This document shows positions 39,131 to 47,307 of a DNA stretch of 64,000 bases, piece after piece (positions within the stretch are counted from its first letter, which is position 1; each line of letters starts with the position of its first letter). Position numbers and translations under genes: made by a program. Source of the DNA: Gammaproteobacteria bacterium (GTDB lineage: Bacteria > Pseudomonadota > Gammaproteobacteria > HK1); NCBI GenBank assembly GCA_021773635.1, contig JAJFJV010000019.1, positions 186,001 through 250,000 on the forward strand, in the 5' to 3' direction. The notes beneath the pieces were generated by a model. It made no database searches. It saw only the letters and a program-made list of their open reading frames with translations, and was not told the DNA's origin.

Positions 39131-40282
39131 ATGTCCGACTCCATCTCCGTAGCGAAACACGACACACCCGACTGCATCATTATTGGAGGCGGCGTCATCG
39201 GCATGCTCTGCGCCCGCGAACTGGCCGGCGAGGGCCTGAAGGTCACGCTGCTGGACAAGGGGCAGACCGGACAGGAATCCACCTGGGCCGGTGGTGGCAT
39301 CCTCTCTCCATTACATCCTTGGCGCTATCCGGATGCGGTCTCGGCCATGGCACGCTGGAGCCAGGCCCACTACCCGTCCTTTGTTGAGGCGCTGAAGATA
39401 GAAACTGGCGTCGATCCGGAATGGGTACAAAGCGGTGTGCTGGTACTTGACCCGGAGGATATTGAAGGTGCATTGGCCTGGGGCAAAAAATGGCAGACTC
39501 AAATCGAATTGCTATCTGCCGACCAGGCGGCGAGTTGTGAGCCGGCGCTGGCCGCGCGGAGTACTGACGCCGTATGGCTGCCAAAGCTCGCCCAGGCCCG
39601 CAATCCGCGCATGGGCCGTGCACTCACCGAAAGCCTGTACCGGCGCAGGGTTGATGTTCGTGAACACTGCGCGGTAACCGATCTGGAAATTGTCGACGGC
39701 CAGATCCGCGGTGTAAACACTACCGAAGGGTTGCTACGGGCCGAGCGGGTGATTCTGGCCGCGGGAGCCTGGAGCCCACAGCTTACAGATAGTCTACAAA
39801 CCACGATTAAGGTACTGCCGGTACGCGGGCAGATGCTGGTATTCCGCGCTCCTAAAGGTCTCGTCACCCGCATCGTTCTCGATGGCCCACGCTATGTCAT
39901 TCCACGCCTCGATGGCCGTGTGCTGGCAGGCAGCACGGTGGAATTTGTCGGCTTCAACAAGGACACCACGGTAGACGCACGAAAAGATCTCCACGTCGCC
40001 GCTATCGATTTAATCCCGGCACTGACCGATTGCGAGATTGAACACCATTGGGCAGGTCTGCGTCCGGGCTCTCCCAACGGTGTGCCCTATATTGGCGAAC
40101 ATCCTGAAATTTCCGGCCTCTTTATCAATACCGGACACTACCGCAATGGCCTCGGTCTGGCCCCGGCCGCAGTGCACCTGCTTCTCGATCTGATGCTCGA
40201 CCGCCCACCGATCCTGCCGCCGGAAGACTACGCTCTCGGACAGCAGCGCCCACCCAGCGTCGAGTTTCCACAGGATACGTAG
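39131..40282 (+). CDS. thiO: Glycine oxidase ThiO
   Basis: 383 residues. FAD-dependent amine oxidase of the DAO family that makes iminoglycine for the thiazole of thiamin. It shows the dinucleotide-binding CIIIGGGVIGMLCARELA, ESTWAGGGILSPLHPW typical of ThiO, and VLPVRGQML. The C-terminus has HWAGLRPGSPNGVPYIGEHP and TGHYRNGLGLAPAA. thiC is also in the window but 10 kb away on the other strand; thiS and thiG are not here. Confidence 0.92.
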   Translation: MSDSISVAKHDTPDCIIIGGGVIGMLCARELAGEGLKVTLLDKGQTGQESTWAGGGILSPLHPWRYPDAVSAMARWSQAHYPSFVEALKIETGVDPEWVQSGVLVLDPEDIEGALAWGKKWQTQIELLSADQAASCEPALAARSTDAVWLPKLAQARNPRMGRALTESLYRRRVDVREHCAVTDLEIVDGQIRGVNTTEGLLRAERVILAAGAWSPQLTDSLQTTIKVLPVRGQMLVFRAPKGLVTRIVLDGPRYVIPRLDGRVLAGSTVEFVGFNKDTTVDARKDLHVAAIDLIPALTDCEIEHHWAGLRPGSPNGVPYIGEHPEISGLFINTGHYRNGLGLAPAAVHLLLDLMLDRPPILPPEDYALGQQRPPSVEFPQDT

Positions 40283-40474: not shown

Positions 40475-42931
40475 GTGCCCATCTCTGAAACCGTATTGGT
40501 GATCATGAGTCTGTTGGCAATAGCGATTATTGCCGCCGGACTGTGTCGTAATCTCCCTGTCCCCTTCACCGTTTTACTCGTGGTGATCGGCATTGGACTC
40601 GGCAGCCTTGCGGACATCTGGCAACCACTCGCCCCGCTACAATCATTCCGCCTCAGTCCGGAAATTGTGTTCTTTATCTTCCTGCCGGCGCTAATCTTCG
40701 AATCCGGTTTTAACCTGAATGCCCGCCAGTTACTCCGTGACCTTGCGCCGGTACTCATGCTGGCGATCCCTGCCCTGCTGATCTCCACCTTCCTCATCGG
40801 CGCAGGTCTCAACCTGTTCATCGGCATGGCACCGGTCACCGCCCTGCTCTTTGGCGCCTTGATCTCGGCCACCGACCCGGTGGCGGTGGTGGCCCTTTTC
40901 AGGGAACTGGGTGCGCCTCAGCGACTGACCGTGCTGGTAGAGGGCGAGTCCCTCCTCAACGATGCCACCGCAATCGTATTGTTTGCCATCCTGCTCGGCA
41001 TCAGCGTCGAGGGTGGAGAGCATGACTGGACCCTGTTCGGTGCCGCGGTACTCGACTTTCTGCGTATCTTTCTCGGCGGCGCACTGGTGGGTGCGGTACT
41101 GGGACTGGTGGTTTCCGAACTGCTCTATCGGCTGAAAAGCGGTTTGAGCGCCATCCTCACCCTGTCTCTGGCGCTCGCCTATGGCAGCTTCATCCTTGCC
41201 GAGCATGTGTGGCACGTCTCAGGGGTCATGGCGGCAGTCAGTGCGGCCCTTGCACTGGGGATTTATGGCGTCGCCCGTCTGCACCAGGAGGCCACAGACA
41301 GCCTTGGCGAAACTTGGGAATTTCTCGCCCTGATTGCCAATTCCCTGCTGTTCCTGCTGGTGGGTCTCTCCATCCATCCCGCGGCACTCGCCTCACGCCT
41401 CGATCTCATTGTCCTGGTGGTCATCCTGGTCATGGCCGCCCGGGCCGCCACCCTCTACAGTCTGGTACCGCTGACCACCCGGTTTTTCGCGCTGCCTAAA
41501 ATCAGCCGCGGCGAACAGCACATCATGTGGTGGGGCGGGCTCAAGGGCGGGCTCGCCATTGCCATCGTGCTCTCTATCCCCGAGGATTTTCCTGGCCGCC
41601 CCCTGCTCCTTGACCTCACTCTCGGGGTAGTGCTCTTTACGCTACTGATCAATGCACCCACCATCCGCCCACTGATGCGCTGGCTGGGACTTGATCGCAT
41701 GACCCGTGAGGACCGAGCCGAACTCAAGCAGGGCATACTGGAAGCTCATCACCAAGTCGAACAGAGCATCGGCGAGATGCACAATTCCGGGGTCATTTCC
41801 AAAGCGGGCGTACATCGCTTTCGCAGGGATCTTGCTGCCGTACTGGAGACCGGCACGACGGAAATCGCCGAGGGTGAAGCCACCCGGGATGTCTATCTCT
41901 TTGCCCTGCGTATCGAGCAGGTCGAACTGGCCCGGCTTTATGATTTGAATCTCATCACCCAGTACAGCTACATCGACCTGCGCAACCTGCTGCAGCGGGA
42001 CCGGGACCGAAGCCGCCGGGAAGACCCGGGCGCGGCGGCCAGGCCGAACCGGGAGAAGAGCCTGTTTCTGCGTCTGGAGAACACACTGCTGCGCCGCCTG
42101 CGGGAACGCGATTGGGCCAGTGGCTTTTTATCCCGCTATCAAAACCTGCGCCTGTCGCAACGCCTGGAGCGCACCATCGCGGGCATCCTCATGGCCGATG
42201 CCGTCCTCCGCGCCCTGCAGGCACATGCAGAATTTCCCGCCGGGGCTTGCGCCCCCATCCAGGATACCTATACAGATCGGCTGCAGCGTCGGCGCCAGCG
42301 GCTGGAAACGATTCGACGTGAGTTTCCCGATTTCTACCGGCGTTATGAGTCCCGCCTGTTCAGCCGCGTAGCACTGAGCTCGGCACTGCAAAATACCGGA
42401 CAGGCACACCACAACGGCACCGTGGGCGCCAAGGCCTATGCCCACATCGCCGAGCGTATCCACGAGGCACTGGAGGCGCTGCCACCGATTTCGGTACCGC
42501 TGCCGCAACCCAAGCCCGAGGAACTCATCCAGATGGTGCCGCTGTTCTCGGGCCTTTCGGTCAATGCGCTCGGCGCCCTTGCCCGCCATGCCCGTCAGGT
42601 CACCTTTCTGACCCGTGACGAGATCATTGGCGAAGGCGAAAAGGGTGACGCCCTCTACATCCTCATTCGGGGTGAAGTCGGGGTCTTTCATAGCGCGCCG
42701 CAAGGTGGAGAAACCCGGCTCAGTTGCCTGACCGAGGGCGCCTTCTTCGGGGAAACCGCATTGCTGGGCGACCCGTTGCGCACCGCAACCGTACGGGCCG
42801 AGACCCCGGTTACCCTGTTACGCCTGACCCGTAAAGATATACTCCGACTGGCCGGACAACACCCGGAAGTCAGGCAGCGGCTTGTCGAGGCCAGTAAAGA
42901 ACGCCGGAAAAGTCCGGAACAGGAATCCTGA
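40475..42931 (+). CDS. CPA1-family Na+(K+)/H+ antiporter with C-terminal cyclic-nucleotide-binding domain
   Basis: 818 residues from a GTG. The membrane part (about 1-400) has roughly 12 helices with the CPA1 signatures FFIFLPALIFESGFNLN, ISATDPVAVVALFRELG and EGESLLNDATAIVLF, including the ion-binding Asp of the ND motif. A long cytoplasmic, mostly helical region (about 410-685) follows. The last part (about 687-800) is a cyclic-nucleotide-binding domain with FFGETALLGDPLRTATVRA, whose GE and RTA residues form the phosphate cassette, so binding of cAMP or cGMP is plausible. It is first of an operon: its TGA shares a base with the ATG of the DUF1538 gene. NhaP-type Na+/H+ exchange is the likely activity. 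Confidence 0.88.
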   Translation: MPISETVLVIMSLLAIAIIAAGLCRNLPVPFTVLLVVIGIGLGSLADIWQPLAPLQSFRLSPEIVFFIFLPALIFESGFNLNARQLLRDLAPVLMLAIPALLISTFLIGAGLNLFIGMAPVTALLFGALISATDPVAVVALFRELGAPQRLTVLVEGESLLNDATAIVLFAILLGISVEGGEHDWTLFGAAVLDFLRIFLGGALVGAVLGLVVSELLYRLKSGLSAILTLSLALAYGSFILAEHVWHVSGVMAAVSAALALGIYGVARLHQEATDSLGETWEFLALIANSLLFLLVGLSIHPAALASRLDLIVLVVILVMAARAATLYSLVPLTTRFFALPKISRGEQHIMWWGGLKGGLAIAIVLSIPEDFPGRPLLLDLTLGVVLFTLLINAPTIRPLMRWLGLDRMTREDRAELKQGILEAHHQVEQSIGEMHNSGVISKAGVHRFRRDLAAVLETGTTEIAEGEATRDVYLFALRIEQVELARLYDLNLITQYSYIDLRNLLQRDRDRSRREDPGAAARPNREKSLFLRLENTLLRRLRERDWASGFLSRYQNLRLSQRLERTIAGILMADAVLRALQAHAEFPAGACAPIQDTYTDRLQRRRQRLETIRREFPDFYRRYESRLFSRVALSSALQNTGQAHHNGTVGAKAYAHIAERIHEALEALPPISVPLPQPKPEELIQMVPLFSGLSVNALGALARHARQVTFLTRDEIIGEGEKGDALYILIRGEVGVFHSAPQGGETRLSCLTEGAFFGETALLGDPLRTATVRAETPVTLLRLTRKDILRLAGQHPEVRQRLVEASKERRKSPEQES

Positions 42932-44703
42932 TGAGCACGAGAATCCGTTTTGGTACCTTTATTCAGGAGATAGCCGGACGCGAACTTCCGCTTAGTTACA
43001 ACGAGCTGATTCCCGAGATGGAGACGGATGCGGCGGGCGAGGCACTGCCCTATCGTCCCGGTCGGCTGCGGCTCCGGCCCGCGGAGGTGTATTCAGTCAT
43101 CCAGCCCTACGTGAGCGTACGCCTGCTGGAACAACTGCGTGCGGTAGTTCCACTGGCGCTGTACCTGATGCTGTTCCAGTTGCTGGTGCTGCGCCAGAAT
43201 GTAACCGACTCATCGATCATCACCGCCGGGCTGCTATCCGTCATCGTAGGATTGATGCTGTTCATGGAGGGCCTCAAGGTAGGCCTCATGCCCTTTGGGC
43301 ACACCATTGGCACCATCCTGCCATCCCGCTCGGCGCTGCCCACGGTACTCACGATCACCCTGCTGCTCGGCATCGGCGTCACCTTTGCCGAGCCCGCCAT
43401 CGGCGCCCTTAAAACCGCGGGTTCCAACGTGCGTGCGGAAGACGCCCCCTACCTGCACGCCCTGCTCAACCAGTGGGCCGACACGCTGGTACTGGGCGTG
43501 GGGGCCGGAGTGGGACTCGCGGCGGTCATCGGCACCTTGCGTTTCCTGTATGGCTGGAGCCTCAAACCACTGGTCTACCTGACGCTTGTCCCCACCATCG
43601 GCCTCAGTCTTTATATCTCGCTTGATCCGGAACTCCGGGAAATCCTGGGCCTGGCCTGGGATTGTGGCGCGGTCACTACTGGCCCAATCACCGTGCCGCT
43701 GATGCTCTCCCTCGGTATCGGCATTGCCGCGGCCGCCGGTAAGGGTGACTCCTCCCTGTCCGGCTTCGGTATCGTCACCTTGGCCTCCCTGTTCCCCATC
43801 ATGACCGTCATGCTGCTCGCTCTGTATGTAGCTAATGTCAGCTCGCCCGCCGAACTCATTGCGACCGCTGCCGCAATTCCTGCGGGCACAGATTCGCTGG
43901 CATGGTATGCACACACCCCGGGGCTGGAAATACTGGGCGGTGTTCGTGCCATCGTGCCACTGGTGATCTTCCTGATGCTTGTGTTGAGCCTGGTACTGAG
44001 AGAAAAACTCAGCAAGCCGGGCGAGATCAGCTACGGCATTACCCTCGCCCTGCTGGGGATGATCATATTCAATATCGGCCTTAGTTACGGCCTCGCCAAG
44101 TTGGGCGGACAATCCGGTGGCCTCGTGCCTGCCGCCTTTACCCGCATCGATGTCGTCGCCAACTCACCACTCTATTCCTTTGTCTTCGGCATCCTCGTGG
44201 CACTGATTTTTGCCTGGTTCCTGGGTTTCGGAGCTACCCTGGCCGAGCCCGCCCTCAACGCCCTCGGACTCACCGTGGAAAATCTCACCAACGGCGCGTT
44301 CCCAAAGAAATTGCTCATGTACGCAGTGTCCTTTGGGGTCGGCTGCGGCATTGCCCTGGGGGTACTGAAAATTATCTTTGCTATCCCGATCATGTATCTG
44401 CTGCTTCCAGGCTATCTGCTGGCGGTGATCATGACCGCCCTGTCCACCGAGGAGTACGTCAACATCGCCTGGGACAGTGCCGGCGTAACCACCGGCCCGG
44501 TCACCGTCCCGCTGGTGCTTTCCATGGGGATTGGATTTGGCAACGCCGTCGGAGCTATTGAAGGCTTCGGCATCCTGTCCATGGCATCTATCGGCCCTAT
44601 TCTGGCGGTACTGGGCACCGGGCTGTGGATCCAGCGAAAGATCCGCCGCCGCCATGAAAAATCCGAACAAGAGTCCATTGCTACGCTGGAGACTGCGACA
44701 TGA
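42931..44703 (+). CDS. DUF1538 polytopic membrane protein (putative transporter)
   Basis: 590 residues. A soluble N-terminal stretch of about 65 residues precedes some 14 hydrophobic segments arranged as two repeats. Paired motifs show the duplication: GVTFAEPAIGAL near 149 and GATLAEPALNAL near 433; AWDCGAVTTGPITVPLMLS near 241 and AWDSAGVTTGPVTVPLVLS near 512. These match the DUF1538 family, which has no known function. The twofold repeat and conserved Glu, Asp and TTGP motifs look like a transporter core. The ATG overlaps the antiporter stop and its TGA overlaps the next start (ATGA), so expression is coupled to the antiporter and the PII-like proteins. Confidence 0.88.
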   Translation: MSTRIRFGTFIQEIAGRELPLSYNELIPEMETDAAGEALPYRPGRLRLRPAEVYSVIQPYVSVRLLEQLRAVVPLALYLMLFQLLVLRQNVTDSSIITAGLLSVIVGLMLFMEGLKVGLMPFGHTIGTILPSRSALPTVLTITLLLGIGVTFAEPAIGALKTAGSNVRAEDAPYLHALLNQWADTLVLGVGAGVGLAAVIGTLRFLYGWSLKPLVYLTLVPTIGLSLYISLDPELREILGLAWDCGAVTTGPITVPLMLSLGIGIAAAAGKGDSSLSGFGIVTLASLFPIMTVMLLALYVANVSSPAELIATAAAIPAGTDSLAWYAHTPGLEILGGVRAIVPLVIFLMLVLSLVLREKLSKPGEISYGITLALLGMIIFNIGLSYGLAKLGGQSGGLVPAAFTRIDVVANSPLYSFVFGILVALIFAWFLGFGATLAEPALNALGLTVENLTNGAFPKKLLMYAVSFGVGCGIALGVLKIIFAIPIMYLLLPGYLLAVIMTALSTEEYVNIAWDSAGVTTGPVTVPLVLSMGIGFGNAVGAIEGFGILSMASIGPILAVLGTGLWIQRKIRRRHEKSEQESIATLETAT

Positions 44704-45089
44704 GCGAAAAAGAAATTCCTGTCCTCACCGATGCCGCGCTCATCACCTGCATCGTCCAGCGCGGCATCGCCGATAAAATTGTCCGGGCGGCCCAGGAGGC
44801 TGGCGCCCAGGGGGCAACCATCCATTACGGCAAAGGCAGCGGGGTGCGGGAACGACTCGGTATCATTGGCCTGGCCATTGAGGTAGAGAAGGAAGTTATC
44901 ACTACCGTAGTCGCAGATGATCAACTCGATCGCGTGTTTGAACGTATGTACCACGCTGGCGATCTTGGCACCCCGGGCATGGGTATGATGTACGTCACCC
45001 GTCTGGAGAAGGCCGCCACCTACATCCCCCACGAGATCGTCGAACGCCTGGCTAAACGCCAGGCACGGCGTAAGCCCGGACAACGGTAG
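44700..45089 (+). CDS. PII-like signalling protein, first of two
   Basis: 129 residues. The ferredoxin-like PII fold is suggested by DAALITCIVQRGIADKIVRAAQEAGAQGATIHYGKG, then IEVEKEVITTVVADDQLDRVFERMYHAGDLGTPGMGMMYVTRLEKAATYIP. The GTPGMG and MMYV part matches the C-terminal nucleotide-binding strand of PII proteins. The T-loop region (GSGVRERLG) is short and lacks the uridylylated tyrosine of GlnB. A basic tail (KRQARRKPGQR) is extra. It probably binds a nucleotide or small ligand and regulates the DUF1538 protein or the antiporter; this role is inferred from the operon. Confidence 0.85.
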   Translation: MSEKEIPVLTDAALITCIVQRGIADKIVRAAQEAGAQGATIHYGKGSGVRERLGIIGLAIEVEKEVITTVVADDQLDRVFERMYHAGDLGTPGMGMMYVTRLEKAATYIPHEIVERLAKRQARRKPGQR

Positions 45090-45095
45090 AGCAAG

Positions 45096-45428
45096 ATGGG
45101 CACCGAAAAACTCATTAGCTGTATCCTTCCCAAAGGCACTGCCATGCCGGTCATGAAGGCGCTGAAGGAAGACAAAGGCATCATCACCGCCAACATTCAC
45201 AGCGCCCGGGGGGCCGGTCGCCTGACCCCTCTGGATTACCGCGGTATGGGCGAAACCACGGAGAAAGAAGTCCTGGATGTCATCGTGGACACCAGCAAGG
45301 CAGACGAGATCTTCGGGTTTCTCTACACAGTGGCGGAAATCGATCAGCCCCACGGGGGACTGATGTACATGCAAGCCCTGATCAGGGCTACGCCTTACCG
45401 GCTTCCAGAAATTAAGGAGGAGGCATGA
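45096..45428 (+). CDS. PII-like signalling protein, second of two
   Basis: 110 residues, a typical PII length. KLISCILPKGTAMPVMKALKEDKGIITANIHSARG gives strand-helix-strand. LDYRGMGETTEKEVLDVIVD aligns with the GlnB segment around YRGAEY and the following strand, but with a shorter T-loop and no tyrosine at the modified position. PHGGLMYMQAL is the last strand. It differs strongly from its neighbour, so this looks like a heteromeric pair or two sensors, not a recent duplication. The gene begins six bases after the first PII stop and overlaps the DUF4124 start (ATGA). Confidence 0.85.
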   Translation: MGTEKLISCILPKGTAMPVMKALKEDKGIITANIHSARGAGRLTPLDYRGMGETTEKEVLDVIVDTSKADEIFGFLYTVAEIDQPHGGLMYMQALIRATPYRLPEIKEEA

Positions 45429-45874
45429 AGGCAGGGTTGGCGGCAGTATTCGTTATCCTGTGGTATGCAGGGCCGGTTCTGGCGGGAGATATCTATCGCT
45501 GGTTGGATGAACACGGCAAGGTGCATTACGGTGACCGACCCGGAATATCATCGGCCCGAAAAGTTTTGGTGGACAGCCGGGACAAAATACCCGCCAATCC
45601 TGCCGGCGGAGAACGAAAGCAGAAACAACAGCGCCTGTTAAAGGCCTATGAGATCGAACGGCAACGCAAACAGGAGAAGCGGCAGAAAGTCCGGAAGGAA
45701 AAGCACAAACTGGCCAACGACTGCGCCACAGCACGCAAGAAATTACGCGAGATCCGGGACGCCCGATATCTGTACCAGAAAGGAAAGGACGGGAAACGCG
45801 CTATTTACACCGCTGCCCAGCGGCAGGCGGCAACCCGCGAACTCAGGGATGCCATCGCCCGGCATTGTGACTGA
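45425..45874 (+). CDS. DUF4124 domain periplasmic protein
   Basis: 149 residues. A signal peptide (1-20, ending PVLAG) is followed by the DUF4124 motif IYRWLDEHGKVHYGDRPG and a Lys/Arg/Gln-rich, probably coiled-coil, segment (about 55-105). Two cysteines (DCATARKKL and ARHCD at the end) could form a disulfide. DUF4124 proteins are common in gammaproteobacteria and mostly unstudied. Its start overlaps the second PII-like stop, so it shares the transcript, though a functional link to the membrane proteins is unproven. Confidence 0.85.
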   Translation: MKAGLAAVFVILWYAGPVLAGDIYRWLDEHGKVHYGDRPGISSARKVLVDSRDKIPANPAGGERKQKQQRLLKAYEIERQRKQEKRQKVRKEKHKLANDCATARKKLREIRDARYLYQKGKDGKRAIYTAAQRQAATRELRDAIARHCD

Positions 45875-45997: not shown

Positions 45998-46092
45998 CAC
46001 AGTCTTGAACGCATGCAATGGATGCAGTGCGAATTACCAGCGCCATCTCCGCGCGGATGCGGTTAGGCGCTTTGCGTGTGGGGGGCCGCTAC

Positions 46093-47307
46093 ATGACACA
46101 ATTGAATACCGTGGACGCCCCGGCCATTATTGATCCTGGCTTTCGCCGGAACAGCCACCGACGCGCGGCCTTGCTCAACGTAGCCGTCCAGGCCGGGCAC
46201 CTGCGCCGGGCTAATACATCCGCCCAGATCGATCAGCATACCGTGAACCTCTCGAATCTGATCGAGCGCTCTCTGGACAACCACACCAACAGCCGGCGTG
46301 TGGAAACGACCCGCGAGTACCTGCTCTACACCCTGAACAAATGCCCCCCAACGCAGCGTGGCAACCATCTGGAGACCGCCGCGCTAGCGCTACTGGTTGG
46401 CGACAAGGGAGCACACGAGATCGTCGCCCCAGCCGGGATTTTGTATGAAACGACGGCCCTGTGGCCCTCGCTATCGAAGTCGCAATCAGGGCTCGCACTG
46501 GTATATGCCAACTCGGGAGATCCAAAGCTGGCCCTGCAGCGCGCCGCGCTGGCCCAGAACCACGCGCTGGATGGCTGGAAGCTCAATGCAGCCGAAGTGG
46601 CGAGCCTGCTGCACTTTGATCGGGGTGATTTCCAGGGTGTCATCAAAGCGGTTCAACAGGCGGTGCGTCGTCGTATCCAGGTGCCCGCAAAAAGCGACCA
46701 GCGAACGATCCTTGCCCGCCTTTACCTCGTTCGCTGTTACGCGGAGATACGCCTGGGGATGCCGACAGATGCCTTCCATACCCTGGCCGCGTTGTACAGC
46801 AATATGACCGTAACCGACCCCACGCTGCGACGAATCCGGGCCATCTATGCCGAGACACTGCGCTCTTTTCTCGACCAGGGGGCCAAGCAGTCGCCTGCTT
46901 TCGCTTCGACCCGGGTGCAGCTCATGGAAACCGGCTCCATGGGGCCTGGTGCGGCCCCGCTACCGGATATTGAGGCCATCTACAAAGGGAATGATCCGAG
47001 GGATCCGTCGAATATCTTTGAGGACCCCTTCCAGTCGGTACAGGCGCATGACGTCGCCGTGAACGTGCTGCATCAGGGGGATGCCGTGCTCACCGTAGGC
47101 ACTACCCAATACGAATTCTCCCTGCCGACGCACAGGCGGCGAGCCGTGACGCCTGACAGCCAGGAATCCTCACCGGTACGGGCCGTTCGTCGCAACCGCA
47201 GGGGCAGATGGCCAAGTCCCCGCGACCTGTTGCCCATGGCTGCCCGAATCCTGGCACGGCTGAGACAATATGCTCCTGCCTGGGCAAGACCGGTTGAGGG
47301 TACCTGA
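46093..47307 (+). CDS. Hypothetical protein, probably helical repeat (TPR-like)
   Basis: 404 residues from ATG 46093, chosen because GGGGG lies seven bases upstream; the frame is open from ATG 46018. I do not recognise a family. No signal peptide or membrane helix is seen. Residues about 90-270 look like an alpha-solenoid (SGLALVYANSGDPKLALQRAALAQNHAL; FDRGDFQGVIKAVQQAV; LYLVRCYAEIRLGMPTDAFHTLAALYS), reminiscent of tetratricopeptide repeats. The last 60 residues are strongly basic (RRAVTPDSQESSPVRAVRRNRRGRW), which could bind nucleic acid or acidic partners. It has its own promoter and is followed by a convergent gene. Confidence 0.7.
   Translation: MTQLNTVDAPAIIDPGFRRNSHRRAALLNVAVQAGHLRRANTSAQIDQHTVNLSNLIERSLDNHTNSRRVETTREYLLYTLNKCPPTQRGNHLETAALALLVGDKGAHEIVAPAGILYETTALWPSLSKSQSGLALVYANSGDPKLALQRAALAQNHALDGWKLNAAEVASLLHFDRGDFQGVIKAVQQAVRRRIQVPAKSDQRTILARLYLVRCYAEIRLGMPTDAFHTLAALYSNMTVTDPTLRRIRAIYAETLRSFLDQGAKQSPAFASTRVQLMETGSMGPGAAPLPDIEAIYKGNDPRDPSNIFEDPFQSVQAHDVAVNVLHQGDAVLTVGTTQYEFSLPTHRRRAVTPDSQESSPVRAVRRNRRGRWPSPRDLLPMAARILARLRQYAPAWARPVEGT

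Follow-up and report, generated by a model that had tools for sequence, protein, structure and literature searches.

In a 64,000-nucleotide stretch of the genome of a gammaproteobacterium of the HK1 lineage (assembly GCA_021773635.1, contig JAJFJV010000019.1, positions 186,001 to 250,000; hereafter the window), five overlapping or near-touching genes fill positions 40475-45874 of the plus strand. They encode a CPA1 antiporter with a cyclic-nucleotide-binding (cNMP) domain, a fused DUF1538 membrane protein, two PII-like proteins that we call PIIa and PIIb, and a DUF4124 protein (Table 1). All five genes were found where a first-pass annotation had placed them, and its family names were right, with PF00999 and PF00027, PF07556, PF00543, a second PII-like protein and PF13511 recovered with Pfam. 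The six-base gap that it reported, between genes 3 and 4, is also there, but all five genes and not four take part in overlaps. These occupy three junctions out of four, with TGATG where gene 1 meets gene 2 (42929-42933), and ATGA where gene 2 meets gene 3 (44700-44703) and where gene 4 meets gene 5 (45425-45428). The CPA1 gene starts with GTG, and two congeneric relatives likewise open with MPISETVLVIM. The host genome is 2.55 Mb and 99.6 % complete; the same five genes occur in two congeners, with DUF1538 proteins 90 and 95 % identical to that of the window.

Comparing the locus across genomes, we found that the conserved unit is DUF1538, PIIa and PIIb. The comparison starts from the best 80 of at least 497 stretches matching the fused protein in named genomes; without L111, which is the L037 locus, and with L034 and L036-L038 added, this gives 83 fused loci (L054 is the L035 locus). 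Room, for these loci, means at least 800 nt downstream, and in every one of the 77 that qualify the fused DUF1538 gene is followed by PIIa and then by PIIb. The remaining six end at contig edges, three of them just after PIIa. With 77 of 77, the DUF1538-PII-PII order is not due to chance. The records, nearly all metagenome-assembled genomes, are labelled Pseudomonadota, Nitrospinota, Nitrospirota, Planctomycetota, Bdellovibrionota, Campylobacterota and Thermodesulfobacteriota. Between DUF1538 and PIIa, 78 of 80 loci have a gap no longer than 50 nt, and 47 have one of exactly -4; these values come from longest open frames, by which overlaps may be overcounted. Clean profiles for PIIa, PIIb and the PII proteins of unfused-type DUF1538 loci were built from the examined loci themselves, and Pfam, applied to 30 members of each PII set, provides the independent check.

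DUF1538 had been described in the first-pass annotation as having no known function. That is wrong, since a pair of DUF1538 proteins from Halomonas zhaodongensis, UmpA and UmpB, was shown in 2017 to form a Na+(Li+,K+)/H+ antiporter (PMC5484666, in excerpt), and we reject the idea of a function-less family because this antiporter is one of its members. According to the same excerpt, growth of Escherichia coli KNabc with NaCl and LiCl was restored by umpA and umpB jointly and by neither singly, and everted vesicles with both proteins showed Na+, Li+ and K+/H+ antiport (PMC5484666). The window's protein lies far above the PF07556 gathering cut-off, and its best NCBIfam models are those of UmpA and UmpB (NF041627 and NF041628), which match best at residues 65-297 and 338-575, respectively, with the UmpA-like half first in the chain and the UmpB-like half second. 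It reaches neither NCBIfam equivalog cut-off (204.5 of 490 for UmpA, 161.4 of 500 for UmpB). The two halves are 33 % identical to each other, and in an alignment of DUF1538 halves (10 rows from four groups) the invariant positions include an AEP triplet, one aspartate, one threonine and several glycines. Because DUF1538 is the family of the UmpAB antiporter, the fused protein probably exchanges a monovalent cation for protons rather than carrying some unidentified nutrient. An AlphaFold2 model built with 75 relatives in the input has a mean local confidence (pLDDT) of 80.2 and a predicted template-modelling score (pTM) of 0.79. Compared with solved structures, it gave no Foldseek match at E ≤ 0.001, and its best VIA-align match among the listed families covered, NCX_Mj (Z 5.8, root-mean-square deviation 6.4 over 190 residues), is too low to count. 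The N-terminal segment of about 55 residues has no counterpart in two aligned unfused UmpA proteins and is modelled with low confidence; it could be a docking segment.

Canonical GlnB/GlnK proteins are marked by a full T-loop with a uridylylated tyrosine and by a C-terminal RIRTGE. The host's three canonical PII proteins keep the five T-loop residues examined as well as RIRTGE, and PIIa and PIIb have neither; because these segments are missing, both proteins are, judged by sequence, members of the PII superfamily but not GlnB/GlnK. PIIa passes the PF00543 cut-off, and at E ≤ 0.01 this model matches 29 of 30 proteins of the PIIa family. PIIb is more divergent: it falls below the cut-off (14 bits against 25, E 0.065), and of 30 proteins of the PIIb family 19 match at the lax level of E ≤ 1. 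Compared profile to profile, the PIIb family matches the PIIa family at 99.5 % and E 7e-23 (hhalign) and solved PII chains in the PDB with a best E of 1.6e-5. In its fold model (pLDDT 88.2, lowest confidence at the T-loop region) strands and helices follow one another as in PII, and the top Foldseek matches are GlnK1 and GlnK, the best being GlnK1 (E 3.9e-7, template-modelling scores 0.70/0.66). On this model, PIIb has a PII fold. In a PII tree, PIIb, the unfused-type PII and canonical PII form separate well-supported groups; PIIa forms no group of its own in the same tree, which rests on few columns and whose deep order is unsure.

The association of DUF1538 with PII is not confined to the fused module (fused-A). 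A PII gene lies downstream, immediately or at a short distance, in all 164 examined DUF1538 loci with room, which fall into four groups. The largest of the others is the unfused type, represented by 75 loci, 15 from relatives and 60 from the best-scoring listed rows of class genomes away from the contig start. All 75 have a downstream PII gene (1.4 kb away in L210), and 70 have the order DUF1538-PII-CBS; in eight, the PII-CBS layout goes with a fused DUF1538 protein of about 500 aa. Pfam supports the assignment, as 30 of 30 unfused-type PII members match PF00543 at E ≤ 0.01. In the second slot of these loci, 30 of 32 scanned members of cluster A6 are CBS proteins, and the added open reading frames of L052 and L053 are Amidase_2; weak matches to a second PII in these loci were rejected, being CBS proteins by Pfam. 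The window's own genome carries, besides the fused operon, an unfused umpA-umpB-PII-CBS operon (Table 1), whose pair also stays below the NCBIfam UmpA and UmpB cut-offs (357.4 and 350.9).

Plasmids and a third subfamily complete the four groups. Seven of nine DUF1538 plasmid records, five clostridial and two alphaproteobacterial, were examined, and PII is present in all seven. In the five plasmid records with gene annotation the downstream gene is labelled P-II family nitrogen regulator, so that the DUF1538-PII adjacency is already visible in NCBI annotation. The clostridial PII proteins have two PII domains per chain. In four of the five proteins, each domain is matched at E < 1e-6; in the fifth the first domain is weak (E 0.0035). 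The third DUF1538 subfamily comprises six loci, one of them (L246) cut at a contig end and partial matches in G226, G252 and G253 excluded, and in the five with room DUF1538 is directly followed by a single long PII protein of about 390 residues. Three PII domains are seen in four of these proteins, two of which have a weak third domain; the remaining protein has two. In one fused-type locus, L117, a tandem PIIb-PIIb protein stands in the place of PIIb, which hints at a 1:2 ratio of the two PII types.

Table 1. Genes of the operon in the window and related features elsewhere. Positions without a prefix are those of the window.
Feature	Location	Strand	Evidence or remark
CPA1 antiporter with C-terminal cNMP domain, 818 aa	40475-42931	+	PF00999 213.8 bits (over cut-off), PF00027 72.2 bits
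Fused DUF1538 membrane protein, 590 aa	42931-44703	+	PF07556 351.6 bits (gathering cut-off 22.6), two stretches
PIIa (PII-like protein A), 129 aa	44700-45089	+	PF00543 32.6 bits (cut-off 25)
PIIb (PII-like protein B, divergent), 110 aa	45096-45428	+	Profile-profile comparison and fold model
DUF4124 protein, 149 aa	45425-45874	+	PF13511 35.7 bits
Unfused umpA-umpB-PII-CBS operon in the window's genome	contig C3, L039:4879-7156	-	
Tandem PIIb-PIIb, 247 aa	L117:12142-12885		After DUF1538 and PIIa
Multi-PII-domain proteins, third subfamily	L243:4486-5661, L244:7659-8813, L245:335-1525, L247:4379-5596, L248		

Domains one and two of the triple proteins group together in the PII tree (87/73), the clostridial tandem domains form another group (90/97), and the L117 pair sits inside PIIb (100/92), apart from the other multi-domain sets. 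Since the three sets branch in different places, the PII domains apparently were multiplied in separate events, with moderate support. What varies among the groups is the second regulatory slot, which is filled by a second PII gene, by extra PII domains in the same chain, or by a CBS protein. Both PII and CBS families are known to bind adenine nucleotides. In a sample of 370 genomes from the window's class, 127 have DUF1538.

The first gene of the operon encodes an NhaP/SOS1-like CPA1 antiporter, with the cNMP domain at about residues 684-815, that does not reach the NCBIfam a_cpa1 equivalog cut-off (221.2 of 279.6). Among the CPA1 proteins found beside fused DUF1538, 14 of 15 could be aligned, the fifteenth (L096) being cut off. 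N162-D163, in the NDAT motif, is invariant in all 14, and the cNMP domain is present in 13, being absent from L060. A glutamate and an arginine mark the phosphate-binding cassette of such domains. The window's cassette reads FFGETALL....RTATV, FFGE is kept in 12 of the 13 domain carriers (FFGD in L079), and the arginine, residue 769 in the window's protein, is nearly invariant in cluster A8. The plant antiporter SOS1 similarly combines a transmembrane antiporter, a helical cytoplasmic region and a cNMP-type domain, but its domain has lost the key arginine and is thought unable to bind cyclic nucleotides (PMC10372031, in excerpt), whereas the window's protein keeps this residue and ends after the domain. 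No further CPA1 protein with a cyclic-nucleotide-binding domain was found in the window's genome. The same genome holds three nucleotidyl-cyclase (guanylate/adenylate) matches to PF00211, which makes a cyclic nucleotide plausible in this host.

CPA1 adjoins fused DUF1538 in 15 of 83 loci, or 10 of the 45 with room on both sides, not counting matches under 100 bits in L083, L104 and L123; the next most frequent neighbour cluster close to the module occurs in 8 of 83. It stands upstream on the same strand, divergently, or downstream, and on the tree its presence changes nine times, at least six of them by supported branches, against 14.1 in shuffles. CPA1 is thus a recurrent optional partner of the core module: the first-pass annotation was right that it shares the operon, but it is no fixed member of the system. 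The place of CPA1 in the same overlapping gene string, its rank as the commonest extra neighbour and its repeated association in three arrangements would suit a PII pair that controls both antiporters, or mainly the one with the cyclic-nucleotide domain. Of the 45 fused loci with two-sided room, however, 35 lack CPA1, which weighs against so tidy a reading, whereas PIIa-PIIb follow DUF1538 wherever there is room. Moreover, CPA1 was found in none of the 82 loci of the unfused type or on plasmids, most of them with flanks of roughly 3-4 kb, and PII is present in all 82. Because PII is constant and CPA1 mostly absent, PII tracks DUF1538 and not CPA1, and we regard control of CPA1 by the PII pair as unlikely.

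Instead, we consider it likely that the core of fused DUF1538, PIIa and PIIb is a PII-gated monovalent cation/proton antiporter, a proposal in which antiport, the ion, PII binding, the direction of control and the ligand are what we infer. The fused protein would hold both UmpAB-type antiporter halves in one chain and act as a monovalent cation/proton exchanger. PIIa and PIIb would be dedicated sensors that dock on its cytoplasmic face, possibly as a single mixed oligomer, as suggested by the multi-PII-domain proteins beside DUF1538. Once docked, they would inhibit or release the antiporter in response to an adenine-nucleotide-type signal, either energy charge or a cyclic nucleotide. Since umpA and umpB suffice for UmpAB activity in E. 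coli, PII probably acts as a brake and not as a required subunit. In the window's genus, the CPA1 antiporter with its own cNMP domain would be made together with this module, so that two exchangers with separate nucleotide inputs are set together. By analogy, the operon suggests an antiporter family switched by small sensors in the way that ammonium channels are. The first-pass annotation had seen here an undescribed ion or nutrient transport system with two signal inputs; a conserved two-PII transporter locus is indeed present, and we found no description of it in the literature searched, but a nutrient is probably not the substrate, given the family of UmpAB, a cation/proton exchanger.

Several points weigh against this proposal. 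Gene linkage does not equal binding. The fused protein is distant in sequence from UmpA and UmpB, and its substrate may differ. Because no solved structure is clearly like the DUF1538 model, the predicted fold lends no independent support to antiport. With a non-canonical T-loop and C-terminus, the ligand of PIIa and PIIb is not readable from their sequences. A metal signal is also possible for such proteins, as proposed for PII-NG, a non-canonical PII that shares an operon with the proton/cation antiporter CzcABC and has been read as a cytoplasmic metal sensor (PMC7726332, in excerpt, citing Sant'Anna 2009).

This precedent also bears on whether PIIa and PIIb have other targets, such as enzymes or gene expression, or serve as free metal sensors, with no more than an operon in common with DUF1538. 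Canonical PII has many soluble targets, which would make such a role conceivable here. We think it quite unlikely, however, since the linkage to DUF1538 holds in every locus with room in four groups while other neighbours vary. A different possibility concerns the substrate: the module could serve bicarbonate (inorganic carbon) uptake in autotrophs, with sensors like SbtB or CPII, and not cation/proton exchange. Many of the fused-locus names, such as Nitrospina, Mariprofundaceae, Thiobacillus and Chromatiaceae, belong to lithoautotroph or phototroph lineages, and in the class sample DUF1538 other than fused-A goes with RuBisCO (89/113 vs 109/257, Fisher p 6e-11, kinship ignored). Fused-A DUF1538 itself shows no such enrichment (5/14 vs 193/356, p 0.19), no RuBisCO match was found in the window's genome or in the two congeners, and the sole characterised relative, UmpAB, is a cation/proton antiporter, all of which make an inorganic-carbon role very improbable. 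RuBisCO was matched in 198 of the 370 class genomes, a higher number than expected.

The gated cation/proton antiporter could also be one case of a wider rule. All DUF1538 antiporters may form a further PII-gated family, in which the fused forms have an obligate hetero-oligomeric PII, for example one PIIa to two PIIb, that reads two metabolite signals. The PIIa and PIIb-PIIb of L117, the triple-PII proteins and the clostridial tandems are its basis, and we offer this extension tentatively, as possible but rather doubtful.

Few metabolic sensors are as widespread in bacteria as the PII proteins, whose best known transporter targets have to do with nitrogen and inorganic carbon. AmtB-GlnK and SbtA-SbtB each pair a transporter with a neighbouring PII-type gene, and the window's module has in common with them the conserved coupling of a transporter gene to a dedicated gene of the PII superfamily, seen in 77/77 fused-A loci and 164/164 loci across the four groups. 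It differs in its transporter family, in having two distinct PII proteins with non-canonical T-loop and C-loop, and in that PII binding to the transporter is here a proposal. Two tandem PII paralogs are also found in NifI1/NifI2, whose target is nitrogenase, whereas the target proposed here is a membrane antiporter. PDB entry 9p1x, which we take to be NifI1/NifI2, contains two different PII chains in 12 and 6 copies. The closest working model for PII control of the antiporter is SbtB, a protein that plugs SbtA by binding it in the presence of AMP or ADP, whereas ATP or cAMP hinder this (PMC10991534, in excerpt). PII-NG and CzcABC resemble the window in that a non-canonical PII shares an operon with a proton-driven cation antiporter, but CzcABC is a metal exporter of another family, with one PII gene proposed to be a metal sensor (PMC7726332, in excerpt). 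Compared with UmpAB of Halomonas zhaodongensis, the window's protein belongs to the same PF07556 family and keeps the order of UmpA-like and UmpB-like parts, but it is one fused chain, has the N-terminal extension, scores far under the NCBIfam equivalog cut-offs and is followed by two PII genes, where loci of the unfused type have a single PII gene, in most cases together with a CBS gene.

A description of the DUF1538/UmpAB-PII pairing was not found in the open-licence literature, which is not proof of its absence: neither "PII" nor "P-II" occurs in PMC5484666, PMC10030654 or PMC13255231, "P-II" does not occur in PMC12093952, and "PII" occurs in PMC7221264 solely within a peptide motif. What appears new is not the kind of system, since PII-controlled transport is known, but its occurrence with another transporter family, for which control itself is something that we infer. 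If the proposal is true, sodium and pH homeostasis would be wired directly to energy or nucleotide status, each DUF1538 antiporter would carry a testable prediction, and UmpAB, assayed from umpA and umpB alone, would have been assayed without a possible regulator. Moreover, the multi-PII-domain proteins beside DUF1538 offer a natural route to the study of mixed PII oligomers.

Conservation separates the core from the last gene of the operon. The first-pass annotation had named a lack of conservation across genomes as grounds for refutation; this does not apply to the core, but it does to the DUF4124 gene. Included in the set by that annotation, this gene adjoins the module in 3 of the 83 fused loci, each from the window's genus, and we reject it as a part of the system on this count; it is probably a genus-level passenger outside the system. 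Its protein has an apparent signal peptide, read by eye. Downstream of the operon, 46018-47307 holds a 429-aa open frame without a Pfam or NCBIfam match. Upstream, on the plus strand at 39131-40282, a ThiO-like glycine oxidase gene (TIGR02352, 284.2 bits, above cut-off) ends 192 nt before the operon, and its cluster is found close to the module in 3 of the 83 fused loci.

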